A stretch of DNA of 47,764 nucleotides from Marinilabiliales bacterium. GTDB lineage: Bacteria; Bacteroidota; Bacteroidia; Bacteroidales; Prolixibacteraceae. The position numbers were made by a program, and so were the translations under genes. Within the stretch, counting starts at the first letter, position 1. Every line of letters starts with the position of its first letter. The DNA is taken from positions 1 to 47,764 of the forward strand of contig JAJTBP010000003.1 of the NCBI GenBank assembly GCA_021286825.1. The letters run 5' to 3'. Of this stretch, positions 7,718 to 44,602 are shown piece after piece. The notes below the pieces were generated by a model. It was not told the origin of the DNA. It searched no databases and saw nothing but the letters and a program-made list of their open reading frames with translations.

Positions 7718-7738
7718 CCTGATGAATCCTGGCAAGTG

Positions 7739-8992: not shown

Positions 8993-9018
8993 TTCGATAC
9001 AAATAACTGCTAAATTTG
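8988..9018 (+). promoter_or_regulatory. Promoter of ftcD
   Basis: TTTG at 8988-8991, a spacer of 19 bases, then TAAATTTG at 9011-9018. Both elements match the Bacteroidota housekeeping promoter exactly and at the correct distance. The -33 element overlaps the last codons of hutI. The implied leader before the ftcD ATG at 9114 is close to 90 bases. Confidence 0.65.
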
Positions 9019-9113
9019 AAGGATAGGTACGGTGGATAGTCAAAGCATTCGTTCCCAAACAAATCCGGCCATCATCCGAATTGTCACCAGATTCGCCAAC
9101 AAAGAAACTGTAT

Positions 9114-28555: not shown

Positions 28556-29731
28556 TTAATACCAGGGATGATCTTTCACCCGAACAATACCGGGGTTCCC
28601 TTCTTGACCCAGAATGGTTCTGCCTCCGAGCCAGTTGGCTGCCCGGATGGCGGAATAGCCCTTCTTCGCCGGATCAAAATTGTCGATCCTGACATAACCG
28701 GATGAATTGATGTAGGCGCCTTCACCCAGGTACAAACCCACATGGGTCGCCCTGGCAGAATGGGTTGCATCGGCTTTCCTGCCAAAAAAGACCAGGTCAC
28801 CGGGTTTGAGTTTCTGGTATCCTTCCGAGGGATCGGTGAAGCGTCCGTGTCTGAACTGCAGCGAGGCATCTCTTGCCAGGATGATGCCGTTCAGGAAATA
28901 GACGGTCTTGACGAATCCACTGCAATCCACCCCTTTGCTGGAGGTACCACCCCAGAGATAAGGACGCCCTTTGAGTGAAAGCGCGACCTGTTCAAGGGAT
29001 TGTGGCAATTGGAAAGCAGTTGTTTTCCAGCTGTCAAAATCGAGTACCTCATGCGTAGGCAGGCTGACGATCCTTCCATCGGGCAGTTGGGCGGTGGTGG
29101 TTCCTCCTTTTTCGGAGACCCATTGCATCAGGTCACCTGCCACCAGGTCGGTGGCGGCTGTCTGGCTTTCCGGATCCATGGCCGTCCCGGCAAGGGGAAG
29201 ATAGATGACCCGTTTCGAAGTTCTCCAGGCCGCGGCGGCCGCACTGTCCTGCAGGACGATGGCATCGTCATCGACCCAACCGATGTAGCGGTCGGGCGTT
29301 TGGATCATCAACCAGCTGCCGGAGTGTTTCAGTACTTTAACGGGCGTTCCGAGCAGCGATTGTGAAACCATCTCCGAGGAGTGACCTGGACCGGACCGCA
29401 TGTTGCAAACGCTGACGGTGACCAATCCCATGGTTTTCTCTCCTTTGCCCTGCTCAGGCAGCAGGCGGATGCTGTCGAGTGTTTTGATGCCTGCTTGTTG
29501 CAGATGGTCCAGCAGTGAGGCCTTGGCCTTGTCGCTTGTCGTCTCTCCTTTGGCTACCAAGGTACCCTCCTGTGGATAGAAGTGGACCTGGTAGAGCTCT
29601 TCGCGTGTGTCGGGTGCATGCTGGACAGCCGTCTGCTTTGAAATCTCTTCGGCCTTCTTCGTTTCCGTGTTCTGCTGGACGCAGGAAAAGAGAAGGGCAG
29701 CTAAGGTGATGGGTAAAAATATCTTTTTCAT
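28556..29731 (-). CDS. NlpC/P60 gamma-D-glutamyl endopeptidase lipoprotein with SH3 domains
   Basis: The 391-residue protein cuts the D-Glu-diaminopimelate bond of stem peptides, giving L-Ala-D-Glu. The lipoprotein signal ends at Cys17 (LLFSC). Bacterial SH3-like domains fill about 100-235 (SVCNMRSGPGHSSEMV, YIGWVDDDAIVL). The NlpC/P60 domain (about 245-365) has Cys270 in GVDCSGF and His330 in THVGLYLGE. The third catalytic position is Asn342 (YINSSG), where YkfC-type enzymes such as the Bacillus one have His. PYLWGGTSSKGVD matches the site that reads a free N-terminal L-Ala. The epimerase gene follows at 39 bases; a 131-base gap separates it from the NagZ fusion. Confidence 0.92.
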   Translation of the reverse strand: MKKIFLPITLAALLFSCVQQNTETKKAEEISKQTAVQHAPDTREELYQVHFYPQEGTLVAKGETTSDKAKASLLDHLQQAGIKTLDSIRLLPEQGKGEKTMGLVTVSVCNMRSGPGHSSEMVSQSLLGTPVKVLKHSGSWLMIQTPDRYIGWVDDDAIVLQDSAAAAAWRTSKRVIYLPLAGTAMDPESQTAATDLVAGDLMQWVSEKGGTTTAQLPDGRIVSLPTHEVLDFDSWKTTAFQLPQSLEQVALSLKGRPYLWGGTSSKGVDCSGFVKTVYFLNGIILARDASLQFRHGRFTDPSEGYQKLKPGDLVFFGRKADATHSARATHVGLYLGEGAYINSSGYVRIDNFDPAKKGYSAIRAANWLGGRTILGQEGNPGIVRVKDHPWY

Positions 29732-29862: not shown

Positions 29863-32800
29863 TCAGCGGACCTCCTTTTTTGGCATGTTTTGGTAAATCG
29901 ATTTCAGTATTTCTGTTCTTACGTTCATTTCGCCGATTTTGTTGTTGTCGCGGGTTGGATAAACCCTGTTCGACAGGAAGATGTAGACCAAACCGCAGGC
30001 AGGATCGATCCAGACGAAGGTGCCTGTGTACCCGGAATGGCCAAAGCTTTCGGGCGAAACAGCACGAATCGGATAGGCCTCTTTCTCACCCATCGCGTCG
30101 TTGTTGAGCAGGGGTTTGTCGAAACCCAAACCCCGACGGTTGCCGGTCTTTGGGAACTGTGGTCTGGTGAACTCGCGGAGGGTCGACTCCTTCAGGTATT
30201 GGTGACCTCCATAGGTGCCCATTCGCCGGTACATCTCGTAGATCTTGGCCAGGTCGTTGGCACTGCCGAAGAGTCCGGCATTGCCTGAAAGTCCGCCCAA
30301 CACGGCCGATGACTCATCGTGGACGGTTCCCAGAAGCTGCTGTTGCCGATAGTAATGGTCCTTTTCCGTGGGGATGATCTCCTCCTCGCTGAACCGCTCC
30401 AAGGGTAGAAAGGTGACGCGATCGGCACCAAGGGGTTTGTAGAAAGATTCATCCAGCAGTTCGCGGAATTTTCTTCCGGAGATGGCTTCGGTGATGGCGG
30501 GTGTCATGACAAAGGGAAGGTCGCTGTAGACGTATTTGCCACGGGTCTTGAGGTGCGATTTCCGGATGGTCTTGTAAACCGTCTGCGGGAAATCGTTTCT
30601 CAGCCATAATCCTTTGGCTGCCTGGAGTCCGAAATTGGGCTCCTGCTGAAACCTGTACCATTTTGTGCTCAACACCCCCTTCTCCATCGATTTCTTCCAG
30701 AAAGGGAGGAAGGGGGGCAATCCCGATTGGTGGGAGAGCAGTTCCCGGATGGTCACATCCTTAAGTTCTGTCTTGTTGAAAAGCCGGTTTTTCCAATAGG
30801 GGAAATAATCCGAGACAAAGGCGTCGGGTTGGATTTTCCCTTCATCAAACAGCTTCATCCAGACCGGAGTGCCGGCCGTAATTTTGGTCATCGATGCGAG
30901 GTCGTACAGGTCGTCCCTGCTCTCGGCTACCTTCCGGTCGAAGGTGTGAAAACCGTAGGCTTTGTGGAAGATGACCTTTCCATCCTTGGCGACCAGCACG
31001 TTGCAGCCGGGGAAAGCCTTTGCCGCAAGAGCCTCCTGGACAATCGAATCGATTTGACCGTTCAGCGCATCTGAGGAGATGCCCGATTCTTCGGGCAGTG
31101 TGTATTTTAGGCGGATCGCCGGGATGGTCGTCAGTCCATCACCCCAATGGTAGTGACCGGGGAGGGATACCGGCAGTTTACCTGTGGCGGAGATGCCACC
31201 AAAGATCAATTGGGCAGCAAGTTGCTGATTGAGTGAGTCGTTTTGATAAGCCAGGATCAATCCGGTGGGCAACTTGGGGCTCTTCCATTCCATGAGACTG
31301 TAAGGACTTCCGAAAACCACCATGACTGCCTCCTTTTTGGCTGCGAGGAAGTTGAAGAGGGAGTCCAGCCCGGCATTCATTCCGTAGGGTCGTTCGGGTT
31401 TGCCCGATTGTTTGTATCCTGCCTGCATCGATCTGCGCCCCTTGTTTTCGTAAAGGGCATGCAAACCGGCGATGACCAGGTCGTATGACATCAGTTTTTT
31501 CTCGACGACCCGTCTTTCCTGATCGCTGAAATGGTCGGGCAACTGATATGGGTCGATCCGGCAATAGTTGCCCAGCATTTTTTGGAATGGGGTCATCGTC
31601 TCGCTGCCCACCGAGAGGGAGGCGATGCGGATTTTATCCAGGTTTCTGACCGGAAGCAAGGAATCCCTGTTCTCCAATACCGTCAGGGCTTTTTCGGTGA
31701 TCTTCCGTTTGATCAGTTCCGTATTTGGCTTGTTCAGTTCCCGCAACAGGTTCTCTTCCTGTATTTTGACAGGGTGATCAAGTCCGCACCAGTATTTTGC
31801 CGCCAGTACTTTTCTGCATTTTCTCTCCAGGTCGGCAACCGGGAGCTCCTTTTTTTGAACGGCAAGGAGGATCTCCTGATAGGCCAGCACGGGATCGGCC
31901 GGAAATTCTACCACGTCGTTTCCGGCTTTGAGGGCAGCCACTTCCAGCTTTCCTGGAGGCAGGAACCCCATGGCTCCCTCCATGTTGGTGGCATCGGTAA
32001 TGACCAGTCCTTTGTAATGCCAATTGCCGAAAAGGATCTCACCGACGATTTTCGGTGAGAGGCTGGATGGTTCTCCAGGGGTCGCGTCGAGTGCCGGGAG
32101 GTTCAGATGGCCGGTCATGATGCAGCCAATGCCGGCGTTGGCCAGTTCGCGGAAGGGAACCATCTCGAGGGTATCCAGTCGCTCTCTGGTAAACGGGAGT
32201 GTTGGCAGCGCCAAATGCGAGTCGGTTCGGGTGTCACCGTGGCCTGGGAAGTGTTTGGCGGTAGCCAGGATGCCATTTTGCTGTAACCCGGCAGCCATGA
32301 CGACAGAATAGCGGGTAACTGCTTTGGCCGATTCCCCAAAGGAACGCATGCCGATCACCGGATTCAGCGGTTCCGTGTTGATGTCGCAGCAAGGGCCGAG
32401 TGACAGGTTGACCCCGATGCGCCTCATCTGCCGGGCCATCTCCGACGCGGCTTGCCTGACGAGGGAGGTGTCTCCTGCAGCGCCCATCGCCATGTTGTAA
32501 GGCATGGAGAGCACGGAGGAGAGTCGCATGCCAATGCCCCATTCGGCATCCATGGCCACGATGGGTTGAATTTTGGAGAGGGAACGGTAGAGGTTGGTCA
32601 GTCGAGTCTGCGTGACGGGATCTCCCTCAAAAAAGATGATCCCTCCGAACCCATAATCCCGGACCAGTTGCGCATCCCGCAACTGTTTCTGTAAGTTGTT
32701 GCCTGCGGTGACATCGATCCAGATCAGTTGTGCGACCCGTTGTTCGGTGGTCATTGATTGATAAACGGAGTCTACCCACGGATGGTGCGACAGTTTTTCC

Positions 32801-32868
32801 AGATCGACTTGGCTCATTCCAGGCAGGCCGATGCATACAAACAGGAGCAGGATCAGGAATTTTCTCAT
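29863..32868 (-). CDS. nagZ: NagZ-type beta-N-acetylglucosaminidase fused to a serine beta-lactamase-fold hydrolase
   Basis: A 1001-residue exported fusion. The signal peptide ends near residue 19 (PGMSQ). The GH3 catalytic domain (about 25-365) has AKHFPGHGDTRTDSHLALP, with the Asp216/His218 dyad specific to NagZ, and nucleophile Asp292 in VITDATNMEGA. A GH3 C-terminal alpha/beta domain covers about 385-575. From about 595 to 995 is a class C beta-lactamase/PBP-like domain with S659-M-T-K662, Y781-S-D and H944-S-G. NagZ removes GlcNAc from GlcNAc-MurNAc-peptides; the second domain could act as a MurNAc-peptide amidase or esterase. I chose the ATG at 32868; a start 14 codons earlier hides the signal. 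It lies 19 bases after ampG. Confidence 0.92.
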   Translation of the reverse strand: MRKFLILLLFVCIGLPGMSQVDLEKLSHHPWVDSVYQSMTTEQRVAQLIWIDVTAGNNLQKQLRDAQLVRDYGFGGIIFFEGDPVTQTRLTNLYRSLSKIQPIVAMDAEWGIGMRLSSVLSMPYNMAMGAAGDTSLVRQAASEMARQMRRIGVNLSLGPCCDINTEPLNPVIGMRSFGESAKAVTRYSVVMAAGLQQNGILATAKHFPGHGDTRTDSHLALPTLPFTRERLDTLEMVPFRELANAGIGCIMTGHLNLPALDATPGEPSSLSPKIVGEILFGNWHYKGLVITDATNMEGAMGFLPPGKLEVAALKAGNDVVEFPADPVLAYQEILLAVQKKELPVADLERKCRKVLAAKYWCGLDHPVKIQEENLLRELNKPNTELIKRKITEKALTVLENRDSLLPVRNLDKIRIASLSVGSETMTPFQKMLGNYCRIDPYQLPDHFSDQERRVVEKKLMSYDLVIAGLHALYENKGRRSMQAGYKQSGKPERPYGMNAGLDSLFNFLAAKKEAVMVVFGSPYSLMEWKSPKLPTGLILAYQNDSLNQQLAAQLIFGGISATGKLPVSLPGHYHWGDGLTTIPAIRLKYTLPEESGISSDALNGQIDSIVQEALAAKAFPGCNVLVAKDGKVIFHKAYGFHTFDRKVAESRDDLYDLASMTKITAGTPVWMKLFDEGKIQPDAFVSDYFPYWKNRLFNKTELKDVTIRELLSHQSGLPPFLPFWKKSMEKGVLSTKWYRFQQEPNFGLQAAKGLWLRNDFPQTVYKTIRKSHLKTRGKYVYSDLPFVMTPAITEAISGRKFRELLDESFYKPLGADRVTFLPLERFSEEEIIPTEKDHYYRQQQLLGTVHDESSAVLGGLSGNAGLFGSANDLAKIYEMYRRMGTYGGHQYLKESTLREFTRPQFPKTGNRRGLGFDKPLLNNDAMGEKEAYPIRAVSPESFGHSGYTGTFVWIDPACGLVYIFLSNRVYPTRDNNKIGEMNVRTEILKSIYQNMPKKEVR

Positions 32869-32887
32869 ATCAAAGGGTAAATGGGAA

Positions 32888-34744
32888 TCAGTTTTTAACC
32901 TTTTTGCCAAATTCGGGTTTTACATTCAGGAAGAGGACCGGAATGACACCGGGAATCATGCAGAGCATTACCCAGACGAAGAAATATTTGTATCCGATGA
33001 TCTCCTGCAGCCAGCCGGAGAACATCCCGGGAATCATCATGCTGAGGGCCATGAAGCCTGTTGCGATGGCAAAATGGGCTGTTTTGTTCTCCCCTTCCGA
33101 GATGTAAATCATGTAGAGCATGTAGGCGGTGAAGCCAAATCCATAACTGAATTGTTCGATGGCGGCGCACAGGCTGATGATGAAGTAGCTGGTGGGCTGG
33201 GCATAGGCCAGATAGACATAGGCCAGATGCGGGAGGTTGATGGCCAATACCATCCACCACAGCCAATAGCGAAATCCTTTGCGCGAAGCAGCCAATCCGC
33301 CGAGGATGCCTCCCAGTGTCAGGGCAAGGATGCCGATGGTTCCGTAGATGAGGCCGACTTCACCGGTGGTCAGTCCCAATCCTCCCAGTTGTCTGGAATC
33401 CAGCATGAAAGGTGAGGCCATCTTGATGAGCTGTGCCTCGCCGAAGCGGTAAAAGAGGAGGAAAGAGAGGATCACCCAGATCTCCTTCCGTCTGAAGAAG
33501 GAGGTGAACGACTTGAAAAAGGCTGCCATCATTTTGTCGTCGCTCTTCAGGACTTTCTGATCGGAAGCCGGGAAGGGAAGGATCAGCTTGTGGTAGAAGG
33601 AGAAGAGGACAAAGAGGGCTGCCAGCAGGAAGAAGGTGAGACTCCAGGCCAGATGGATGTTCCCGGAGATACCGCTGAAGGAGGCCTCCGAGGCGGTCTG
33701 AAGCTTGGGATCGACCTGGAAGAGGAGGTAGGCAGGCATCTGCCAGTTGGTGCTGTTGAAAGCCAGCCGTTCTCCTTCCAGTAGTTTCAGGCTGTTGTCA
33801 CCATCCTTGAATTTGATATTCAGAATCATCTCCTTGCCCTCCTCCGGCTTGGAATTGAGCCGAACGGCAACAGCGGTGACGTTGCCCGTCAGCTGTTCAC
33901 CGGAAAGGGGGGTCTCCTCTTTGGTGAAATGTCTTTGCAGAAATCGTTTCAACGGATCGGATACCAGGTCGCTCCACAGGGAACGCTCTTCAGGCGTACC
34001 GGTAGCATGGGCTGCACCCGTACGTCCGGTGAATCCGTATTGAAGGTTGTGGTTGATCACCACTTTTCGCAGGGAATCCATCTGCCGGACGGGAATGTTT
34101 TGGGTGGAGACCCCTGCATGGGATGGAAAGGCAACGAAGCAGGTGGCATTGGCCGATGTAGCCGGAATGGCATTGCTTTCAGGGAGATTCAGTTGGAGGG
34201 TCTGCGATGGGTTGGCTGCTACCTTCACCTCGAGAGGAGGCAATCCGGTGGCCGTCTCAAAGTACCCGGCCAGAATGATCAGCAAGCCTTGGCCGGTGAT
34301 CATCGCGATGCGGTAAAAAGTGCTTCGGATGCCGACAAAATAGGCTTGCTGGTGTTCGTTGAGACCAAGCATGTAAAAGCCGTCGGCCGAGATGTCATGG
34401 GTTGCCGAGCTGAAGGCCAGCAACCAGAGAAAGATGAGGGTGACCTTGAAAAACCCGGGCAAGGGAATGGCCAGCGCAACGCCGCCCAGTCCAGCCCCGA
34501 TGATCAGCTGCATGATGACGATCCACCAACGTTTGGTTCTGAATAGATCGACCACCGGACTCCAGAGCGGCTTGATGACCCAGGGTAGATAGAGCCAACT
34601 GGTGTAGAGGGCAATGTCGGTATTGGAGATGCCCAATCGTTTGAACATGATGACAGCCACCGTCATGGCCACCACATAGGGAATGCCTTCTGCAAAATAG
34701 AGGGTTGGGATCCATGCCCAGGGATTGCGGTATTCTTTTTTCAC
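32888..34744 (-). CDS. ampG: AmpG-family muropeptide permease with a large extramembrane insert
   Basis: A major-facilitator inner-membrane transporter of 618 residues; E. coli AmpG has 491. It starts with the AmpG-like NPWAWIPTLYFAEGIPYVV, followed by WLYLPWVIKPLWSPVVD and FSSATHDISADGF. Five membrane segments lie in residues 12-162 and the remaining ones in 365-610. Between them, about residues 165-362, is a soluble stretch of some 200 residues rich in predicted beta strands; by the even/odd rule it faces the periplasm. AmpG proteins import anhydro-muropeptides by proton symport. The start is a GTG at 34744. A matching -7 box precedes it, so it may head its own message with the NagZ fusion, endopeptidase and epimerase. 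Confidence 0.88.
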   Translation of the reverse strand: MKKEYRNPWAWIPTLYFAEGIPYVVAMTVAVIMFKRLGISNTDIALYTSWLYLPWVIKPLWSPVVDLFRTKRWWIVIMQLIIGAGLGGVALAIPLPGFFKVTLIFLWLLAFSSATHDISADGFYMLGLNEHQQAYFVGIRSTFYRIAMITGQGLLIILAGYFETATGLPPLEVKVAANPSQTLQLNLPESNAIPATSANATCFVAFPSHAGVSTQNIPVRQMDSLRKVVINHNLQYGFTGRTGAAHATGTPEERSLWSDLVSDPLKRFLQRHFTKEETPLSGEQLTGNVTAVAVRLNSKPEEGKEMILNIKFKDGDNSLKLLEGERLAFNSTNWQMPAYLLFQVDPKLQTASEASFSGISGNIHLAWSLTFFLLAALFVLFSFYHKLILPFPASDQKVLKSDDKMMAAFFKSFTSFFRRKEIWVILSFLLFYRFGEAQLIKMASPFMLDSRQLGGLGLTTGEVGLIYGTIGILALTLGGILGGLAASRKGFRYWLWWMVLAINLPHLAYVYLAYAQPTSYFIISLCAAIEQFSYGFGFTAYMLYMIYISEGENKTAHFAIATGFMALSMMIPGMFSGWLQEIIGYKYFFVWVMLCMIPGVIPVLFLNVKPEFGKKVKN

Positions 34745-34893: not shown

Positions 34894-34919
34894 GAGAAAA
34901 GCAGTTAGTATCTTTTCTC
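34894..34919 (-). terminator. Hairpin spanning the SpoIID stop codon (possible attenuator)
   Basis: The arms GAGAAAAG (34894-34901) and CTTTTCTC (34912-34919) are perfect complements around a ten-base loop containing the TAA stop. On the - strand the stem is followed by TGTATCTTT, a poor T run, so partial termination or an RNA-processing site fits better than a full stop. Confidence 0.35.
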
Positions 34920-36227
34920 CAGAACGGCTCCGACAAAATAATGACGAAGGATCGCATCGAAGGGATAGCCCTTATCTCCCATCACGGCAGCACCGATCTG
35001 GCACAGGCCCACTCCATGGCCCCATCCGGCTCCGGTGAGCAGGAAGGATGCCGGAATTGGGCCGTCCCCCATTTTGTCCACCACAAAGGCCGAGCTATAG
35101 AGATGCGAATGGGAGAGTATCTTTCGAATCTGCAACTCCTTGCCGATGATTTTGGTCAGCTTGGAACCCACCACTTTCAGCCGCAGGATGCGGCCCGATT
35201 CTCCCCGCTCCACGGGAATCAGATCCAGGATCTCCCCGAAATCAAATCCGCTCTTGGTTCGGATGAGAGAGGCAATTTCTGCTTGGGTGTAACTTATTTT
35301 CCATCGGTAGAAATCGGTCGTCTCCTGGTCGTAGTCATTCAGCACCTGCGACAATACCCGCTTGTCGGTGGTGTTGCAGAATGCCGGAGGGGAAGACCGG
35401 ATGAAACGGTCGGCCTCCTGCTCATCGGTCAAGGATCCGGGTCGCTCACCGCTTGCCACATCGTGCACAGGCTGCAAGTAGGGGTGGACGACGGGTTCCC
35501 AGGCATTTTCAAAGGTCTCGCTGATGCCGCCGCAACTCTTCGAGAAACGGGCATCACACACTTCGCCATCGTAGGTAAGGAGGAGTCCCGAAGTCTCACG
35601 GATTGCCTGTTCCACAAGCGGACTGGTCTGCCGGGTGATGCCCTGATAGCGCTGGCAATGGTCATCGGCACAAACATCGAAATGGTGGTGATCTTCCCGG
35701 TCGTACCAGCGGATGTAGGACCCTTCGGTCTCAAAAATGGTTTGGTATGCATCTGCCGACTGGCCCAGCCGGCTGCCCTTGATGACCTGGGCGATCAGCC
35801 AGGAGCGGGAGATCACCGCATGGGCCTTCAACAATTCCATGCTGCTGGTCGCACTCATTTCGGAAGAGATGACGCTGATGAGGTAATCTTCGAGTGGCAG
35901 GATGTTGATGGCCTGCACTTTGCCCTCTTCTGCCCTCAATTGCAGAGCCCCTCTGAAGCGCTGCGATTCTTTGCGCTCCCAGTGAAATTCGACCCCGATG
36001 GTCACATCATGCAGGTGAAAGGAAGAGACACTTGGATCTACTGGCTCGAATAGAATGGTATCTTTCCCGGTCTCCTTGCCATTGATCAGGATATGGCCTT
36101 CACGGATGGTGGCATTCATCATCTCCTGGTCAGGCAAACCGGCGGGTTGGGATTGGAAGGTACCATCCAGCGAAAAGTAGACGACCGCTTCCGCCATGAT
36201 TCCGACTTTAATATGGGGTTGTTCCAT
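34905..36227 (-). CDS. SpoIID/LytB-domain protein, apparently cytoplasmic
   Basis: A 440-residue protein with the SpoIID/LytB fold. SpoIID of Bacillus is a lytic transglycosylase that cuts MurNAc-GlcNAc bonds in denuded glycan. The catalytic-type glutamate is Glu123 in ISSEMSATSSMELLKAHAVISRSW; His/Cys residues 186-191 (CADDHCQRYQG) match the zinc-binding loop. The C-terminal GAGWGHGVGLCQIGA, with GY later, completes the family pattern. Unlike Bacillus SpoIID or LytB there is no signal peptide or membrane segment: it begins MEQPHIKVGIMAEAV, and no in-frame start lies upstream. So it may act on imported fragments. It starts five bases after the DUF4922 gene. Confidence 0.88.
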   Translation of the reverse strand: MEQPHIKVGIMAEAVVYFSLDGTFQSQPAGLPDQEMMNATIREGHILINGKETGKDTILFEPVDPSVSSFHLHDVTIGVEFHWERKESQRFRGALQLRAEEGKVQAINILPLEDYLISVISSEMSATSSMELLKAHAVISRSWLIAQVIKGSRLGQSADAYQTIFETEGSYIRWYDREDHHHFDVCADDHCQRYQGITRQTSPLVEQAIRETSGLLLTYDGEVCDARFSKSCGGISETFENAWEPVVHPYLQPVHDVASGERPGSLTDEQEADRFIRSSPPAFCNTTDKRVLSQVLNDYDQETTDFYRWKISYTQAEIASLIRTKSGFDFGEILDLIPVERGESGRILRLKVVGSKLTKIIGKELQIRKILSHSHLYSSAFVVDKMGDGPIPASFLLTGAGWGHGVGLCQIGAAVMGDKGYPFDAILRHYFVGAVLEKRY

Positions 36228-36232
36228 TGCTT

Positions 36233-37219
36233 CTATTTTTTGGCACCATCATTTCTGATGGCTTGTTTCAAATGTTCCATTTTATCTTCTTCCAGTCCGA
36301 TCTGATCGAAAATGTCGAGAATATCGGCTGACGTAATCTTTTCGAAGTCCTCCCTGCGCGGTGTGATGAATACACCTCCCAGATCCACCGAAGCCGGACT
36401 GATGAGCAGTTGTGCTTCTCCTTCGGCAAAATAGTAGGAAGGTCTGTGGAGTTTTCTGGGAAAGAGGTGAAGGATCCACTTGCCGGCCGACCAGGAGCAG
36501 AGCAGGTTGATCATCGGTTCTGCTTTTTCGGGCTGCATACTTCCCAGTGTCTCCAAGATGCGTTTCATGAAGCAGACACCGCTCTCAGCATCCGATGTCT
36601 CCAGAGAGATCATCTTCCGGAGGTAGGTGTCAAAAGCCCAGATTTTTGTCGTGGCCGATTCCATCAACAGGGCCCCATCCTCCCATTTTAATCTTTCGAA
36701 CGCTGTATCCACCGGCATAAATCCTTTTTCACCAGCTTGAAAATGGAGATGATCGGGGGCCGAGGCACCGCATTCCGGTCCGTTGTAAAAGAGGGTATAA
36801 CCTTCCATCTCCCTGGCGAGGGAAAGGAGGGTGGCTAGGTTGGCCAGAATCCTTTGATCCGTATGCCGGAGGCTTGTAATGGTAAAATGGTGGCGGAAGA
36901 TGGGATAGGGGTTGACCAAAATCAGAAACTCCCCTCCGGTTTCGAGTTCCAGCTGCTCTGGAGGCCTGTTTTCCCGGCAAAGGAAACATTTTCGGGCTGC
37001 GATCGAACCAGCATCCACCTTCGCAGCAGAAGAACGGATCCGTTCCGGATTGAATTGGACCTTGAGCGTCCATCCCCCGATGGAAAAGCTTTTCTCCTCC
37101 ACCTTTGCCAAGCCACGGTAATTGCTGGCAGACAGTGGCCAACTCTGGTTTTGTTGCTCCAAAAAATGAGCAAACCGGTCTTCGATTTCCATTCCTCTCT
37201 GCTTGTCTGTTTCGTTCAT
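36233..37219 (-). CDS. DUF4922 protein with GalT/HIT-type nucleotidyltransferase motifs
   Basis: A 328-residue soluble protein. I recognise it as DUF4922, which has no assigned reaction as far as I know. Its motifs resemble the GalT/GDP-galactose phosphorylase branch of the HIT superfamily: Cys78-x-x-Cys81 (ARKCFLCRENRP), NPYPIFRHHFTI at 103-114, and APDHLHFQAG with His157-x-His159-x-Gln161, like the HPHGQ of GalT whose second His carries the nucleotide. This suggests transfer of NMP or phosphorolysis of a nucleotide sugar. I chose the ATG at 37219, after an A-rich leader; an ATG at 37270 is an alternative. Codons upstream of that run into the glycosyltransferase gene and are not real. Confidence 0.8.
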   Translation of the reverse strand: MNETDKQRGMEIEDRFAHFLEQQNQSWPLSASNYRGLAKVEEKSFSIGGWTLKVQFNPERIRSSAAKVDAGSIAARKCFLCRENRPPEQLELETGGEFLILVNPYPIFRHHFTITSLRHTDQRILANLATLLSLAREMEGYTLFYNGPECGASAPDHLHFQAGEKGFMPVDTAFERLKWEDGALLMESATTKIWAFDTYLRKMISLETSDAESGVCFMKRILETLGSMQPEKAEPMINLLCSWSAGKWILHLFPRKLHRPSYYFAEGEAQLLISPASVDLGGVFITPRREDFEKITSADILDIFDQIGLEEDKMEHLKQAIRNDGAKK

Positions 37220-37281: not shown

Positions 37282-38748
37282 TCAGGCTTGCTTGCTTTTG
37301 TTTAGCTGTTTTCTTGCCAGAAATTCGATGGTCCGGATGCGGTCTTTGTAGAGGTTGTGGTTGTTCATCACCTCTATGCTCAGTGAGGCATCGGAGTTGT
37401 CGTCCCACCTCCTGCACAGATAGATCGGGTTGTAAATTCTGCCAATTTGGTATGCTCTGGAAATGGCCAATCCCACCGCATAATCTTCGCCATAGCTCAC
37501 ATTGGGGACCCGGATCTCCCGTAGCAAGGGTGTAAAGAAGGCCCGTGGAGCACCCAGTCCGTTGATCCGTAAGGCGTTGTTGCGACCATTTTCGGGAGTC
37601 CATTCCCTGTGGTCGATGACGCCGGGAGGAATCTCTTCGAGGGCAAAATTGACCATGCGGTAGGATCCCACCACCATGGCGCATTTTTCGGCATAGAAGG
37701 TCTGGACCACTTGTTGAAGGGTGGTCTCATCCAGATAAAGGTCGTCACTGTCGAGCTGAACCGCAAATTTTCCACAGGCGGGATGGTCGACCGCCGCATT
37801 CCAGCAGCCTCCGATTCCCAGGTCGGTCCGGCCCGGAATCAGATGAATCAATCGGGGATCCTGAGCGGCATAGGCCGAGATGATCTCCGTCGTTCCATCG
37901 GTCGAATGGTTGTCGGCAATGATCAGGTTGAAAGGAAAATCCGTTTTTTGGGAAAGGACCGATCGGATGGCGTCCTCAATGGTCTTGACCCGGTTGCGGA
38001 CGGGGATGATGACGGAGGCTTCGACTGGGAATTTGGTTGCGCCGAAATCGACAGCCTTGAAGCTTGGCTCCAGGTAGGCTCCTGCCTTCTTGAGGAAATG
38101 GGTACAAACCTCCTCCATCTCAACCTGGACCATCCTGTTTTTCGGATCGACATAATCGAAGATCTTTTCACCGGAAAGACGGAGGTCTGATTCCTGTTCT
38201 GTATAGAGATATTCTGGAATCCGAAAGAAGGTTGATCGGAGAGAACTGTTGAGGCGCAAAGCATACAATCCGGCATGCCGGGTTTCCGGATCAGCTTCCA
38301 GAAGGGCTTCCCGGAGCACAGACGTCCTGTAGAGCAACAACGACCCGAAGTTGAAATCATCGCGGAGGCTTCCTTCCTGGTAATCGATTACGGGATTGGG
38401 AGTCAGGGTGCCTCCCCTGACAGCATAATAGTTTGAGTAGACCAAGCCGGCTCCGGTATCACGGGCGACCCCAACGAATCGCTCCAGCGCCGACTGTCCC
38501 AATTTCAGCGGACTCTGACGCAGGTATATCAGCGTAAAGTCAGCGTCACTGGATTGTGCGATGGCAGCAAGTGTTTTGCCACTGGTCAGCGGTCCGGACG
38601 GAAGCCAGTCGGTCCCTTCCACCGGGAATTGTGCGGTATCTGAACCGGTAATATAAATTTTCTTGACCAGTTCGGAGGAGCGCAATTCCTTCACGGTTGC
38701 ACGGATATCTTTTTCTGCCCCGAAGGGGATGTAACAACAGATTTTCAT
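37282..38748 (-). CDS. GT2-family glycosyltransferase with a second, degenerate N-terminal GT-A-like half
   Basis: The protein has 488 residues with no signal or membrane segment, so it is cytoplasmic. The C-terminal half (about 243-480) is a clear GT2 domain: ASVIIPVRNRVKTIEDAIRSVLSQ-type nucleotide-binding start, ADNHSTDGT, and the metal-binding DSDD at 333-336, then a GEDYAVGL acceptor-side motif. The N-terminal half (1 to about 235) also looks like a GT-A fold (GAGLVYSNYYAVRGG, DFNFGSLLLYRTSVLREAL) but has no DxD, so it is probably inactive or regulatory. Donor and acceptor are unknown. It is followed closely by the DUF4922 gene, and the pair may work on one nucleotide sugar. Confidence 0.82.
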   Translation of the reverse strand: MKICCYIPFGAEKDIRATVKELRSSELVKKIYITGSDTAQFPVEGTDWLPSGPLTSGKTLAAIAQSSDADFTLIYLRQSPLKLGQSALERFVGVARDTGAGLVYSNYYAVRGGTLTPNPVIDYQEGSLRDDFNFGSLLLYRTSVLREALLEADPETRHAGLYALRLNSSLRSTFFRIPEYLYTEQESDLRLSGEKIFDYVDPKNRMVQVEMEEVCTHFLKKAGAYLEPSFKAVDFGATKFPVEASVIIPVRNRVKTIEDAIRSVLSQKTDFPFNLIIADNHSTDGTTEIISAYAAQDPRLIHLIPGRTDLGIGGCWNAAVDHPACGKFAVQLDSDDLYLDETTLQQVVQTFYAEKCAMVVGSYRMVNFALEEIPPGVIDHREWTPENGRNNALRINGLGAPRAFFTPLLREIRVPNVSYGEDYAVGLAISRAYQIGRIYNPIYLCRRWDDNSDASLSIEVMNNHNLYKDRIRTIEFLARKQLNKSKQA

Positions 38749-38809: not shown

Positions 38810-41800
38810 TCACTTCAACAATTCAAGCAACTGTTTCATCAATCTCTCCCTTTCTTCATTTGTTGCAATGGTCTCAATCGGCGTGCAGAGGGAGACAACC
38901 TTGTACCTGCCCTCATAGAAGGTACCGGCACTCTTGTTGTCACCTGCATAACGGAAGAGAACGGAGGCATTCTTGCCTGCTGGTTCAATGGCATCGGGTG
39001 CTTCGACTTTGTAAAGGGTAGGATGCCATGTGTGGATGTAATGGTAGTCTTGGCTGGTCGATTGACGCCAGTTGTTGACGGTGTAGATCTCACCAGATTT
39101 GGAGGCATGGCTTGACCGCAAGGTGTAATGGAGCACCTTGGCGGCAAATTTGGCTGCCAGCGTGTCGCCGCATAGGGCGAGGTCGCTGCCGATGTAGGCA
39201 CCGGATATCAACAGCCGGGTGCCCTCTTTCTCTGAGAGATCGGTCAGTTTTTTCTGCATCGCCGGGGTAAACAGGGTGAAATCCTTGCCGGGGATACCGA
39301 TGAGGCGTGTAGTGGTCTTCTCCTCCCCGAAGATCAGATCGTACAGGCAATAGTGGTCGTTGGCGGAAGGCAGTTCTTCGAATGACTCATCACTCATGGA
39401 TACGAACCCTTTCCCGTTTTTCAACAGGGCGGCGCCATGGACCACCGCATAATCGAACAGGTTGCCTGGAATGATGCGGCTTTCCATGTCAGCATCACTT
39501 GCGCCGAAACCCGGTGCATCATCATCCAGCCACTCGGATTTCCGGTTGAAGTCGTATTGGTTTCCGATGAAGGCGAGGTTTTGTTGGTAGGCCACCCCCT
39601 CATCTTCTTCCATCTTGAAACCGGCCTCTTTGCCGTTGTCAAAAGCTGCCGGGGCACAAATCCTGTCGAAGCCATTGACTATCAAGGCCGGATCCGATCC
39701 GTCCACGGGAAGGGCACAGGCCAGTATCTCGGAAGGAAAACTCTCGCCCCCGGCATTCAGTGCGGTCACCTTGAAGCTGTAGATCACCCCGGGTTCCAGG
39801 TCGGTGAGTGTCATCACAGGCTTCTCGGCGGGATGGCCGTTGTCGAATCCGCCATTCCCCTTCCGGATGTAGACCCGGTAGGCGGTTGGTTCGGCGGTTG
39901 GTTCGAGCGGATCGCTTACAGGCTTCCAACTCAGTCTGAGTGATTTCCCGTCGAGCGACATGGCAAAATGGTCGACCGGCAACGGCTCCACGATGGCCGG
40001 GAATCCGTTCTGCCCGGCAACAAATTTCAGGATCCCTTTGTAGAATGCCCTGCATACATCAAACTTGAAGCGGGGATCCTGCGCGAGGTACATATCGGCA
40101 AAGTTTTGGTGCGAGAGCAATTCTGAAAGAAGGGCCGGGACTTTTGGCCGTGCAGCCTCGAAGTATCGTTTGTTCCACATGCCCCGACGGGTCCAGTCGG
40201 CTTTGTAGCGGGCCCTCAGGTCTTGCACCACCTGGGTCTGCACCAGGTCGGCCAGATCCCGGCTGGCCCATTTGGACTGACCGTTCGGGAAAGTATCACG
40301 GTCAAAGGTGGTGTCATAGATCACCAGCGATCCGATGATGGAGCTATCTGGAGTGGTGCCTGCATCCGTGTGGAAGGCCATGGAGAGGTCGACCGGAATG
40401 CCCATCCCCTTGGCATGGGGAGCCTTGGTCGGACCGTTGGGATCACCCATCAGAAAATTGACATATTCCCCACGACCCATGTAGTCGTCTTTGTAATCTT
40501 CCTTGCCATTTTCCCTGTTGGCATAAAGTGCGGCATCCGATCCCCTGTTGGCATAGTCTATTTTGGTTTTGTTGAGGCTGTAGACCAGTGAATCCGGAAA
40601 TCCTGCGTATTGAAGGAAATACCGTGCGGCTTCCTGATAGCGCGGACGCTGACTGGCAAAACTCCGCCAGATGACTGAGTCGGTTTTGAATCCTTCCTGT
40701 TCCCTTATGCTGTAAAGTTTCTTCAGCTGTTCATCGTTTCCCCTCACGATGTTTCCCATTCCCCCTCCAAAACGGACCGCATCCGCGGATAGCCACTTTC
40801 CAGATTGGGACGAACCATTGGACAAGACAACGGATCCGGTTTCCGGGTGCTGACCTGACTGAAAATGGAAAGTGCCCAGATAGATCCAGGTCCCTCCACC
40901 TTTGGTCTGATCGACGGAAAAAGAGGTCTGACCCCCAGCATGAAAAACGGTATACCGTGCATCACTGCAGTTGTCCTCACTTTGATGGTAGGAGACATAG
41001 ACGGCATAGTCACCCTCTGCAGGGAAAGAAGGGAGGTATTTTACCGAGGCGTCGGCAACCGGTTTGACGGAGATCTTCCGGCTATGGCCCATGCCAAAGG
41101 GGTTTTCACCGTCAAACAGGAAAGGGAACCGGTATCCAAAACCTGCGTCGGGGGCCGTTTGCCATGCTGCCCCTTGTTCCAAACATTGGGAGCCGGCAGA
41201 TGAACCATCGGCATCCACAATCACCTCGTGCGACTGGATATCTCGCTCTCTGGGCATCCAGACTGTAGCGCCTGCATTTTCCAGCATGGGTGTGAGGTAG
41301 GGGACTACGAAGCTCATCGTCCAGAGATCTTCCACCGTCAGGAAGACACGGGCCCGCTGCCACTCCCACCGGTCGAGGGTATTCTCATAATACCAGCCGT
41401 GGCTTTGCCAAAGGGTGATGTGTCGGTTTTCCAGACCATTTTTGAAATGTAGATCCTTGGAGAGGTTCGCAACAAAAGGTTTAGTGGCAGGCAATGGGTG
41501 AATGAGCCTTTTCTGATCGATCGGTAGGGAGGCCTCCCGCAGGACATTGGGAATCAACTGATGAATCTCCTTTCCCATGGAAAAAATGGAGAGATCAAAT
41601 TTGCGGAAGGGTCTGCCCAAAGCCTTGCGGTAGTCCGTATAATACTTCTCTACGGATGCCGTACGGAAAGGGATCTCAGCAAAGGCTGCGTTCATCTCCA
41701 GACTCAGCTTGTGCCTGGCGAAATCGATCTTGAGGGTATCCGCCCGAAATCCAAATCGTTTGCTCTCCGGTATGGCATGGATGAATCCTTTGGTAGCTTC

Positions 41801-41938
41801 TTTGGCCTTCCGGTACCTGCGCTCCGTCTTGTTGGCCCAAAGGGAGTGGGACAGCAGGATCAGTGCCAAAGTGATCCCTAGCTTGGCAGGCAAGCCGGAT
41901 TGAAATGACCGATGGGTTTTATGGCGAAATGTTTCCAT
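38810..41938 (-). CDS. Exported zinc amidase (Amidase_3-like) with golvesin/xanthan-lyase-type insert and FN3 domain
   Basis: A 1042-residue protein, often annotated as xanthan lyase in Bacteroidota. The signal peptide core lies at 20-34 (ITLALILLSHSLWA). The N-acetylmuramoyl-L-alanine amidase site is spread over the sequence: His180 (WQSHGWYYE), Glu203 (TVEDLWT), His523 (SMAFHTDAG) and Glu606 (LLSELLSH). Between the first and second halves sits a golvesin C-terminal-like beta domain (about 300-395, DYAVYVSYHQSEDN, GTWIYLGTFHF). A fibronectin type III domain follows at about 655-750. The last 290 residues are unassigned. It should release stem peptides from glycan in the periplasm or outside. 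The lyase name is misleading. Confidence 0.82.
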   Translation of the reverse strand: METFRHKTHRSFQSGLPAKLGITLALILLSHSLWANKTERRYRKAKEATKGFIHAIPESKRFGFRADTLKIDFARHKLSLEMNAAFAEIPFRTASVEKYYTDYRKALGRPFRKFDLSIFSMGKEIHQLIPNVLREASLPIDQKRLIHPLPATKPFVANLSKDLHFKNGLENRHITLWQSHGWYYENTLDRWEWQRARVFLTVEDLWTMSFVVPYLTPMLENAGATVWMPRERDIQSHEVIVDADGSSAGSQCLEQGAAWQTAPDAGFGYRFPFLFDGENPFGMGHSRKISVKPVADASVKYLPSFPAEGDYAVYVSYHQSEDNCSDARYTVFHAGGQTSFSVDQTKGGGTWIYLGTFHFQSGQHPETGSVVLSNGSSQSGKWLSADAVRFGGGMGNIVRGNDEQLKKLYSIREQEGFKTDSVIWRSFASQRPRYQEAARYFLQYAGFPDSLVYSLNKTKIDYANRGSDAALYANRENGKEDYKDDYMGRGEYVNFLMGDPNGPTKAPHAKGMGIPVDLSMAFHTDAGTTPDSSIIGSLVIYDTTFDRDTFPNGQSKWASRDLADLVQTQVVQDLRARYKADWTRRGMWNKRYFEAARPKVPALLSELLSHQNFADMYLAQDPRFKFDVCRAFYKGILKFVAGQNGFPAIVEPLPVDHFAMSLDGKSLRLSWKPVSDPLEPTAEPTAYRVYIRKGNGGFDNGHPAEKPVMTLTDLEPGVIYSFKVTALNAGGESFPSEILACALPVDGSDPALIVNGFDRICAPAAFDNGKEAGFKMEEDEGVAYQQNLAFIGNQYDFNRKSEWLDDDAPGFGASDADMESRIIPGNLFDYAVVHGAALLKNGKGFVSMSDESFEELPSANDHYCLYDLIFGEEKTTTRLIGIPGKDFTLFTPAMQKKLTDLSEKEGTRLLISGAYIGSDLALCGDTLAAKFAAKVLHYTLRSSHASKSGEIYTVNNWRQSTSQDYHYIHTWHPTLYKVEAPDAIEPAGKNASVLFRYAGDNKSAGTFYEGRYKVVSLCTPIETIATNEERERLMKQLLELLK

Positions 41939-41943
41939 TCGAT

Positions 41944-43062
41944 TCAGACTTTGATGAAAATTTTCTTTTTGTACATCACGTACCCGATGAGCCAGAAAAG
42001 GGTGACATGCGCAAGGGCATAGAGCAGCGATCCGTTTAATTCACCTGCCAGGGGAAGGCAGACATCTTTGTAGAGCCAGGAAGCCAGCGAGAGGCTGGTT
42101 CCAGAGGCGTCTGTTACATGGATCAGCCTGCCGATGGTTTTGGCCCAGAGACCGGAAAAGGCAAATAAAAAGAGGGGATTTACACCAAAGACCACGAAGA
42201 AGGTGGTCCATCCGGTAAATCCTTTGATGTCGATAATCCAGATGAGCAGGGCAAGGGTCAGCAGAGCCCAGCCGGCGGTATAGAGCACATAGGAGCTAGT
42301 CCAGAGCGGTTTCGCAATCGGGAAGACCACACCCCACAGCAAGCCGGTGAGCAACGCAGCCAATCCGAAAAGGACCAGTTTTCCTGGAATTTTGATTTTT
42401 TCAGTGGTGGAGATGAGTTGACCCGTCAGGAAACCAGCCAGTGCTGTAACGATGGCCGGTAGGGTACTGAACAATCCTTCCGGATCAAAGGGGATGCCAA
42501 AACCTTTGTAAAGGTGGGATTCTCCCAGGATCATGCTGTCGAACGCAATCGTCGGATTTCCCTGAAGCGAGTAGGGATCCGGTCCGCCGGTCCAGTTCAG
42601 AAGTCCCCAGTAGAGGAGAAGGATGGCGGAACCGATCCACGGAAGTAATTTTCTTGGAGCCGCCAGTACGATCAATGAGGCCACGCCATAAACGATGGCG
42701 ATCCGCTGCAGAACACCCAGAATCCTTAGTTTATGGAAATCGACTGCCCATTGCGGAAAGGAGTTGAGGAAGAGTCCGATGGCAAAGATGAGCAGTGTGC
42801 GCTTGATCACCTTGAGGACCGAAGCCTTGTTGAGGGTGTTTCCGTACTTGCTAAAGGAGAAGAACATGGAGACCCCTACCACGAACAGGAAAAAGGGAAA
42901 GACAAGATCGGTCGGGGTGCATCCCTGCCAGGCAGCGTGCTCAAGCGGGGCGTAAATGTGCGACCAACTGCCGGGATTGTTGACCAGAATCATCATGGCA
43001 ACGGTCATGCCACGAAGGACGTCGAGGGCCAAATACCTGCCTTTGTTCATGGGTGTTGTCAT
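41944..43062 (-). CDS. DUF5009/NagX-type transmembrane acetyltransferase
   Basis: An inner-membrane protein of 372 residues with about ten membrane segments. The start RYLALDVLRGMTVAMMILVNNPG and PTDLVFPFFLFVVGVS are the signature of the heparan-alpha-glucosaminide N-acetyltransferase (HGSNAT)/NagX/DUF5009 family. The human enzyme moves acetyl from cytoplasmic acetyl-CoA through the membrane onto a terminal glucosamine. Bacterial nagX lies in GlcNAc-use operons and is often listed as a sugar transporter, without firm proof. Here it lies five bases before the amidase gene and one base after the GHL10 gene, in the same message. Re-acetylating glucosamine from de-acetylated glycan is a fitting guess. 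An ATG at 43050 is an alternative start. Confidence 0.88.
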   Translation of the reverse strand: MTTPMNKGRYLALDVLRGMTVAMMILVNNPGSWSHIYAPLEHAAWQGCTPTDLVFPFFLFVVGVSMFFSFSKYGNTLNKASVLKVIKRTLLIFAIGLFLNSFPQWAVDFHKLRILGVLQRIAIVYGVASLIVLAAPRKLLPWIGSAILLLYWGLLNWTGGPDPYSLQGNPTIAFDSMILGESHLYKGFGIPFDPEGLFSTLPAIVTALAGFLTGQLISTTEKIKIPGKLVLFGLAALLTGLLWGVVFPIAKPLWTSSYVLYTAGWALLTLALLIWIIDIKGFTGWTTFFVVFGVNPLFLFAFSGLWAKTIGRLIHVTDASGTSLSLASWLYKDVCLPLAGELNGSLLYALAHVTLFWLIGYVMYKKKIFIKV

Positions 43063-43063
43063 G

Positions 43064-44602
43064 CTATTGTTTTTTAAGACGGATGGCGGCGCTCTCCGTG
43101 TGTGTCGGACTCAGTGCAGAGACGAAGTAGCTATATCTGCCGGGTTTGTATCCCTTCCCGGCTTTCAGCAGCAACTTCTGTCCGGAAGTGACATACAAGA
43201 TGTTGGAGGGATTGTCTATCTTCTTACGCTGCAGCCATTTGAACCGGTAGACCACATAGAGGGTGGCGTTTTCGCTCCCTTCCCAGGAAAGTACGATGTC
43301 GTGCCCCTCTTTTTTTGCCAGGGCATTCGATGGCTCACCGGGTGCTACCGGAAGAATGTGGGGGTTTTCAGGCGTGAGTGCCGGGTATTTGAAGTGCCCA
43401 TTCAGGAGTAATTCCTTCACCCCAAGCGGATTCTTCCGAAGAAATTTGGCACTGTACAACATGCTTCCGCGGATCGCCGGGATGGTCCTGTTCAAGGTGA
43501 TCTGGCGATCAATCTCAGCGGCAGATCGCCAGGAGGGATCCTTGGACTGTTCATCGAGTAGGTAAAGTGCCTGTCCGATGTAGACGGGGCATCCATAGCT
43601 GTGGTCGGCCCACCATTTGGCCAGGATGGCATAATCGGCCACCTCTTTGCCGATGTACCAATAAAGTTGGGGAGTCACGTAATCGATCCATTTTTCCTTT
43701 TGCCATTTGAGGATATCGGCGTAAAGGTCATCGTAGTTGGTGGCCCCGGCTCGCGTAGCAGATCCTTCCGGATCATCCTTCTTGTTGCGCCAGACACCAA
43801 AGGGAGAGATGCCAAATTCCACACTGGGACGGATCGCACGGATACTGTCGTGCAACTGTTTGATGATCAGGTCTACATTGTTTCTTCGCCAGGCCTCTTT
43901 TTCCGTGGCACCAAATCCTTGGGGGAACTGACGGAAACTGTTATCATCCGGAAATTCGAGACCGGCAATTTTGTATGGGTAGAAATAGTCGTCGAAATGG
44001 ATGGCATCGATGTCGTATCGCCTGACGAGGTCACTGACCACCCGGGCTACGTGGTTGCGGACTGCCGGGAGACCCGGATCAAAATATCGTTTTTTGCCAT
44101 AGGTAAGCATCCATTCGGGATGTGTGTTGGCAACATGGTTCGGCGCCGGAACGGTCTTGTCGGTGTTCTGAATGGCGCGGTAGGGGTTGAGCCAGACATG
44201 AATGTCCAGTCCGCGCTTCCTGCATTCTCCGATGGCAAATGTGAGCGGATCATAGAAGGGGTCCGGCGCTTTGCCCTGCTTTCCGGTGAGCCATTCCGAC
44301 CAGGGTTCCAGATCGGAGTAGTAAAGAGCATCGGCATCCGGCCTTACCTGAAAGACCACGGTGTTGAGATGATAGGCCATGACCGAGTCAAGCAGGGATA
44401 CCATTTCGGCTTTTTGCTCTTCCGTAGATAGTCTGGCAGAGGAGGGCCAGTCGATGTTTTCAACGGTGGCAATCCAGGCCGCACGCATCTCTCTTTTGGG
44501 ATATTCTTTGGCTGAGAGCGTAGGGTAAATGCCGGAATAGCAAAAGAGAATGAGTGGGAGAACGAGATATTTTCTAATTTGCAAACTGTTGATATTCTTC
44601 AT
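43064..44602 (-). CDS. GHL10/DUF187-family glycosidase (DigH-like)
   Basis: An exported protein of 512 residues with a signal peptide to about residue 31 (PTLSA). The GHL10 TIM barrel (about 36-355) has REMRAAWIATVENIDWPS, NTVVFQVRPDADALYYSDLEPWSEWLTG, DIHVWLNPYRA, YDIDAIHFDDYFYPY and IDYVTPQLYWYIG; Asp and Glu residues in these strands are likely catalytic. E. coli DigH (YddW) of this family cuts denuded peptidoglycan glycan strands. An FN3-like domain occupies about 410-510. Substrate here is inferred from the family and from the amidase downstream, which would make denuded strands. One base separates it from the nagX-type gene. Confidence 0.9.
   Translation of the reverse strand: MKNINSLQIRKYLVLPLILFCYSGIYPTLSAKEYPKREMRAAWIATVENIDWPSSARLSTEEQKAEMVSLLDSVMAYHLNTVVFQVRPDADALYYSDLEPWSEWLTGKQGKAPDPFYDPLTFAIGECRKRGLDIHVWLNPYRAIQNTDKTVPAPNHVANTHPEWMLTYGKKRYFDPGLPAVRNHVARVVSDLVRRYDIDAIHFDDYFYPYKIAGLEFPDDNSFRQFPQGFGATEKEAWRRNNVDLIIKQLHDSIRAIRPSVEFGISPFGVWRNKKDDPEGSATRAGATNYDDLYADILKWQKEKWIDYVTPQLYWYIGKEVADYAILAKWWADHSYGCPVYIGQALYLLDEQSKDPSWRSAAEIDRQITLNRTIPAIRGSMLYSAKFLRKNPLGVKELLLNGHFKYPALTPENPHILPVAPGEPSNALAKKEGHDIVLSWEGSENATLYVVYRFKWLQRKKIDNPSNILYVTSGQKLLLKAGKGYKPGRYSYFVSALSPTHTESAAIRLKKQ

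Follow-up and report, generated by a model that had tools for sequence, protein, structure and literature searches.

DUF4922, a predicted GalT/Apa-branch HIT enzyme partnered with a GT2 glycosyltransferase and a SpoIID-type protein at peptidoglycan-salvage loci

Gene arrangement and the DUF4922 coding sequence

The window analysed here is a stretch of 47,764 nucleotides from a Marinilabiliales bacterium (assembly GCA_021286825.1, contig JAJTBP010000003.1), in which every gene between 47.7 and 27.4 kb lies on the minus strand. Read in the direction of transcription, domain matches identify an exported GHL10 (glycosyl hydrolase-like 10) protein (43064..44602) and a NagX/HGSNAT-like membrane protein (41944..43062), followed by an exported protein combining golvesin-C, degenerate Amidase_3 and fn3 domains (38810..41938), a conserved operon member that other annotations call 'xanthan lyase'. 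The centre of the row is formed by a tandem-domain GT2 glycosyltransferase of 488 aa (37282..38748; domain matches, structure model and conserved motifs), the DUF4922 protein (36233..37219), a SpoIID/LytB-type lytic transglycosylase without a signal peptide (34905..36227; domain match and conserved residues) and an AmpG-family muropeptide MFS transporter (32888..34744; domain match). Downstream, again by domain match, lie an exported GH3 enzyme that carries the NagZ motif KHFPGHG and is joined to a beta-lactamase-like domain (29863..32910), an NlpC/P60 lipoprotein-like endopeptidase with SH3 domains (28556..29731) and a dipeptide epimerase-like enzyme (27380..28516), whose N-terminal twin-arginine (Tat)-like signal, RRSFLGASALMAGGALL, indicates that it is apparently exported. 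The AmpG-family protein is 618 aa long, and a stretch of about 200 residues that splits its MFS matches is missing from the 430-450 aa homologues found in many loci. Elsewhere in the window, at 4492-10811, genes resembling a histidine-degradation (hut) cluster (hutH, hutU, hutI and ftcD-like) were recognised by eye.

The DUF4922 protein is encoded by a single minus-strand gene with its ATG at 37219 and its stop at 36233, giving 328 aa, and no open frame was found on the plus strand of 36233-37219. The longer mechanical open reading frame reaches 37684 and overlaps the upstream glycosyltransferase gene; homologues start at about 37219. Residues 19-163 match Pfam DUF4922 (PF16269) over profile positions 1-145 of 146 with 205 bits (E 6.2e-61), well above the gathering cut-off of 23.6 bits. 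The motifs on which a GalT-like assignment had originally been based are all present, in the gene and on the strand just given: C78-F-L-C81, N103-P-Y-P-I-F-R-H110-H111 and D156-H157-L-H159-F-Q161. Among 52 homologues sharing 31-61% identity with the window protein, no variation is seen at C78, C81, N103, P104, H119, Q122, N146, G151, S153, H157, H159, Q161, N238, R255 or R259; H111 reaches at least 90% conservation, and H110 falls outside the conserved columns. The invariance of H157, H159 and Q161 thus leaves the expectation of a conserved HxHxQ core intact, and on comparison of the sequences the motif set is a conserved active site rather than a chance resemblance. His159 is the predicted nucleophile, presumably acting through an NMP-His159 intermediate, and C78/C81 together with H111 and H157 form a likely candidate metal site, a set corresponding to the metal site of GalT.

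Fold and superfamily placement

An AlphaFold (AF2) model of the window protein, built with the 52-homologue alignment, reached a mean pLDDT of 95.3. Foldseek placed the yeast Ap4A phosphorylase Apa2 first (7e-11), followed by a DUF4931 protein, plant ADP-glucose phosphorylase and GalT, a family missing from such fold lists not being counted as excluded. In VIA-align comparisons, Apa2 was matched over nearly the whole chain (Z 22.8, rmsd 3.3, 267 residues aligned, model residues 10-315), with ADP-glucose phosphorylase at Z 10.3, GalT at Z about 9-10 and single HIT domains at about 4.5-5. Profile evidence points in the same direction: the family profile detects Apa2 at 6e-6 over the HIT core, and when profiles are compared with each other, class II GalT is matched at a probability of 93.6% (E 2e-7), the CxxC and HxHxQ motifs falling in register. 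The two families are linked by a divergent Persicobacter DUF4922 protein, which matches Pfam DUF4922 at 1.6e-15 and galT_2 at 7.6e-32; CxxC, a proline, H111, H119, N146, G151, S153, HxHxQ and one arginine are common to it, to DUF4922 and to class II GalT.

Other profiles delimit the assignment. Ap4A_phos_N matches the window protein across the HIT core with 20.1 bits, below its cut-off of 23.1; the ATP_transf C-terminal domain gives no Pfam match at E 0.01, and a related DUF4922 protein (L096) scores 22.4 bits against it for a cut-off of 23.5. PF01087/PF02744 and TIGR01239 likewise gave no match at E 0.01, and neither NTP_transferase nor the NCBIfam MurU models (NF045761/NF045697) matched. The protein carries HxHxQ, not HxHxH, and its predicted structure shows, along the entire chain, a HIT fold made of two halves; CxxC, His and HxHxQ, the residue set of the GalT active and metal site, align between DUF4922 and class II GalT and are invariant in both. 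By sequence comparison and structural modelling, DUF4922 therefore falls within the GalT/Apa branch of HIT-superfamily enzymes, with Apa as its nearest relative when the full chain is compared. This sustains the assignment to a GalT/HIT-type enzyme made in the first-pass annotation, for which a predicted fold unlike GalT/HIT had been named as a refuting result, and the fold, the profile matches and the catalytic residues all agree with it.

Set against the individual members of the branch, the likeness is graded. With Apa1/Apa2 of yeast (PDB 4i5t, 4i5v, 4i5w), DUF4922 has in common the whole-length fold, the HxHxQ core and a similar length, at 18% identity; DUF4922, unlike these, is operonic and is fused to GT2 or SpoIID. 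Apa2 acts on Ap4A, and DUF4922 could accordingly be an ordinary dinucleoside polyphosphate (Ap4A) phosphorylase whose operon location is incidental. Apa2 is indeed the nearest solved structure by both sequence and fold, and 148 Bacteroidota genomes contain practically no canonical ATP_transf proteins; a search for the canonical Apa family there returned a single sub-threshold match, which turned out to be a DUF4922 protein. The sub-cut-off Ap4A_phos_N score and the unmatched ATP_transf domain argue against this role, and it would leave the fusions to GT2 and SpoIID and the tie to murQ described below unexplained; it is the least probable of the readings considered here.

Class I GalT and the class II enzyme of Firmicutes (galT, TIGR01239) have a similar fold and aligned CxxC, His and HxHxQ residues, linked by the bridging DUF4922 protein, but differ in length (about 500 aa against 328 aa) and in setting, which is galactose metabolism rather than peptidoglycan salvage. 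The plant ADP-glucose phosphorylase At5g18200 (PDB 2h39, 1z84), an enzyme in which phosphate accepts the NMP of a nucleotide sugar, has a GalT-like fold at a Z of only 10.3 and offers no operon parallels to DUF4922. VTC2/GDPGP1 (GDP-L-galactose/GDP-glucose phosphorylase), compared from the literature alone, carries HxHxQ and belongs to the GalT/Apa branch like DUF4922, but is eukaryotic, guanosine-specific and part of the ascorbate pathway. Enzymes of this type phosphorolyse a nucleotide sugar through NMP-His; for plant GGP the mechanism of the branch is established, with attack by the second histidine of HxHxQ, formation of an NMP-enzyme and delivery of the NMP to Pi or a sugar-1-P (PMC10069634), and we infer that it extends to DUF4922. 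Some plant GGP proteins carry a DUF4922-superfamily annotation (PMC9871823, PMC11047344), and it is only in connection with plant GGP that we found DUF4922 named in the literature.

Partners and salvage genes across genomes

DUF4922 was recognised in 71 of 74 loci, some of them incomplete, so that the following counts, made over the 74 loci, are minima: its loci include GT2 in at least 60 of 71, SpoIID in at least 48, AmpG in at least 47 and NamZ in at least 30, with murQ and a BadF-type kinase as further neighbours. The order GT2-DUF4922-SpoIID-AmpG, whole or in part, recurs in Bacteroidales, Ignavibacteriales and Rhodothermaceae; GT2, DUF4922 and SpoIID usually precede AmpG, and the GT2 and DUF4922 genes mostly overlap or lie no more than about 30 nt apart, start codons being approximate. 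GT2-DUF4922 fusions occur at L032, L106 (Bacteroides finegoldii) and L121, and in 26 other loci SpoIID is fused behind DUF4922. The partnership of GT2, DUF4922 and SpoIID is the firm part of the case, and the functional link to the adjacent glycosyltransferase that had been proposed from the window alone is borne out, the GT2-DUF4922 fusions included; we found no literature on the trio. Three weak phylum-wide DUF4922 matches (G087, G220, G196) were set aside, their loci having no matching neighbours.

In Parabacteroides distasonis (L105) and at L119, L120 and L125, neither AmpG nor SpoIID was seen, yet the GT2-DUF4922 pair stays, which marks the pair as the core unit and means that muropeptides may not be its sole business. 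The GT2 protein is also the best-conserved member, with 47-75% identity to the window copy. It consists of a degenerate GT-A-like N-terminal half and a C-terminal half that is an active-looking GT2 domain with QLDSDD, GED and RRW; the structure model likewise has the GT2 domain behind the GT-A-like half, and because its structural relatives use different nucleotide sugars, the model does not fix the donor. These observations could also describe a biosynthetic unit in which a glycan or glycosylated metabolite is made or proofread in the cytosol by GT2 and DUF4922, trimmed by SpoIID and moved by the AmpG-like transporter. Such a unit would accord with the conservation of GT2, with its persistence beside DUF4922 where AmpG and SpoIID are absent and with a tandem architecture resembling that of chondroitin polymerase. 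The flanking enzymes, however, are degradative or belong to salvage, the module is linked to murQ, NamZ and a kinase, and the Tannerella AmpG is an importer (PMC5388701, PMC7670621), all of which renders a biosynthetic role distinctly unlikely.

Compartment is equally informative. A hydrophobic N-terminus, at or above one hydropathy threshold, was found in 1 of 49 GT2, 1 of 61 DUF4922 (just at the threshold, in keeping with the expected lack of an export signal) and 0 of 41 SpoIID proteins, as against 7 of 8 amidase-like, 8 of 8 GHL10, 4 of 5 NagZ and 4 of 4 NlpC proteins. The open frame of the window SpoIID is 447 aa for a protein of 440 aa, leaving only seven codons ahead of the start and therefore no room for a hidden signal peptide. 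Its catalytic Glu123, together with C186, C191 and H404, is conserved in practically all copies, those of the window, L084 and L060 among them. GT2, DUF4922 and SpoIID would thus be three enzymes, all apparently active, located on the cytosolic side of a muropeptide transporter. By family, the SpoIID-type lytic transglycosylase is an envelope enzyme; its predicted place in the cytosol is unexpected, and the more unusual finding is the fused cytosolic trio. The sharper surprise adjoins DUF4922 itself, namely a signal-less SpoIID fused to a predicted nucleotidyl-transfer enzyme in many Bacteroidota.

The salvage setting is reinforced by co-occurrence. Among 53 near-complete relatives, 35 with DUF4922 and 18 without, MurQ was found in 27 of 35 and 1 of 18 genomes, respectively (p 7e-7; genus-collapsed p 6e-7; both tests ignore kinship and are not phylogenetic). 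In 16 genomes murQ and DUF4922 are separated by 3-15 kb, and 8 of the 35 lack murQ. A search for MurQ in the window's own genome gave no match; in the sister genome G001 the distance between DUF4922 and murQ is 13 kb, in the direction in which the window's contig runs out, and the window genome's copy may simply be off the contig. Together with the neighbouring genes, these data uphold the peptidoglycan-salvage setting first suggested for DUF4922. AnmK, examined as a function that DUF4922 might replace, is lacking in 24 of 35 DUF4922 genomes and 8 of 18 others, a weak difference that ignores kinship (p 0.14; 0.08 at genus level), and this candidate was dropped.

The more specific suggestion, that DUF4922 is a non-homologous counterpart of MurU, fared poorly. 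MurU-like genes (E <1e-25, all below the equivalog cut-off) are present in 33 of the 35 near-complete DUF4922 genomes, alongside DUF4922 rather than lost, so that replacement in its strict form was rejected. A genome of the same genus encodes an AmgK-like kinase fused to RapZ_C and then a MurU-like transferase, and the window's genome has a MurU-like gene beside a RapZ_C fragment, the kinase half being cut by the contig end. The evidence against a MurU-counterpart role is strong but not final, the MurU-like genes all scoring below the equivalog cut-off and being recognised by similarity and by the AmgK-like neighbour, and the specific function of DUF4922 is probably not MurU-like. Fusions of an AmgK-like kinase to the RapZ C-terminal domain were seen at L095 (2981-4306) and L127 (1264-3687), with a MurU-like transferase next.

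The same data weigh on a GalT-style exchanger that would make the GT2 donor, converting UDP-GlcNAc and GlcNAc-1-P or MurNAc-1-P into UDP-sugar and GlcNAc-1-P and so serving as a functional MurU counterpart. An exchanger of this kind would suit the alignment of the active site with class II GalT, the fusion to GT2, with which a supply of donor would be consistent, and the Persicobacter relative, which stands beside an APH-type kinase: on plasmid pPP6 of Persicobacter psychrovividus (L107, 5524-11903), an APH-type kinase, a LacZ-like GH2, the divergent DUF4922 protein (326 aa) and a phosphodiesterase lie in a row resembling a Leloir-type sugar-1-phosphate pathway, in which DUF4922 would be the GalT-like enzyme. 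It is set back by the AmgK-like/MurU-like pair in the genus and the MurU-like gene in the window's own genome, by the retention of MurU-like genes where DUF4922 occurs, by an operon without an anomeric kinase (where a kinase is clustered, it is of the BadF/N-acetylglucosamine-kinase type, not AmgK) and by a whole-length fold closer to the phosphorylase Apa2; on balance we consider it unlikely.

Proposed role in peptidoglycan-sugar salvage

The reading we prefer, with a probability of about 0.58, is that DUF4922 is an NMP-transferase or phosphorylase acting on the nucleotide sugar of its GT2 partner within a cytosolic arm of peptidoglycan-sugar salvage. Following the chemistry of the branch, His159 would attack the alpha-phosphate of the nucleotide sugar to give an NMP-His intermediate. 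The NMP would then pass by first choice to phosphate, the reaction of Apa2, GGP and ADP-glucose phosphorylase, or alternatively to a sugar-1-phosphate in an exchange as in GalT. Since the Apa-like fold extends over the whole length, phosphate is favoured as acceptor, with a sugar-1-phosphate as the predicted product; and since the best whole-length structural relative, Apa2, is a phosphorylase, breaking the nucleotide sugar appears at least as likely as making it. The GT2-DUF4922 fusions imply an intermediate in common, for which a nucleotide sugar or NDP are the obvious candidates; on these genetic grounds, the substrate would be the nucleotide sugar of the partner GT2, a UDP-amino sugar being the most likely candidate. 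The trio would handle peptidoglycan sugars imported by AmpG, feeding MurK/MurQ and GlcNAc-phosphate pools.

A close parallel to the locus as a whole is the ampG-murTKQ operon of Tannerella forsythia (Tanf_08345-08385), in which a xanthan lyase, a glycosyltransferase, a second 'glycosyltransferase', LytB/SpoIID and AmpG follow one another in the order of the window; downstream of AmpG it continues with ybbC-murT-murK-murQ, whereas the window has NagZ-beta-lactamase, NlpC/P60 and epimerase genes. The Tannerella genes (xanthan lyase-gtf-gtf-lytB-ampG-ybbC-murT-murK-murQ) form one transcript under GppX control and encode a working muropeptide permease (PMC5388701), and this AmpG serves mainly peptide-free GlcNAc-MurNAc and GlcNAc-anhMurNAc (PMC7670621). 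From operon position alone we infer that the second 'gtf', Tanf_08355, is a DUF4922 protein. The unit is carried by gut Bacteroides and apparently by the muropeptide-scavenging operon of Tannerella, and an unrecognised step of cell-wall-sugar metabolism may be at stake.

One further reading starts from the fate of imported disaccharides. In a search that covered GH3, the sole enzyme with a NagZ motif in the window's genome was the exported one (29863-32910), which leaves the cytosolic processing of these disaccharides without an assigned step. This gap would be filled by a split, nucleotide-mediated phosphorolysis of cell-wall disaccharides, in which GT2, running in reverse with UDP, would open GlcNAc-MurNAc instead of NagZ, DUF4922 would convert UDP-GlcNAc to GlcNAc-1-P and UDP, and cytosolic SpoIID would cut the MurNAc-GlcNAc bonds of longer fragments. 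If true, a lytic transglycosylase would work in the cytosol and a glycosyltransferase and a HIT enzyme would jointly constitute one phosphorylase; we offer this as speculation and regard it as very unlikely. For DUF4922, a domain of unknown function, the analysis supplies a predicted fold and nucleophile together with two constant partners, so that its function becomes directly testable.

A NUDIX gene was also observed shortly upstream of GT2 in 23 of the 74 loci (for example at 2988-3587 of L077); its product could act on the nucleotide sugars of the module or could be a chance neighbour.
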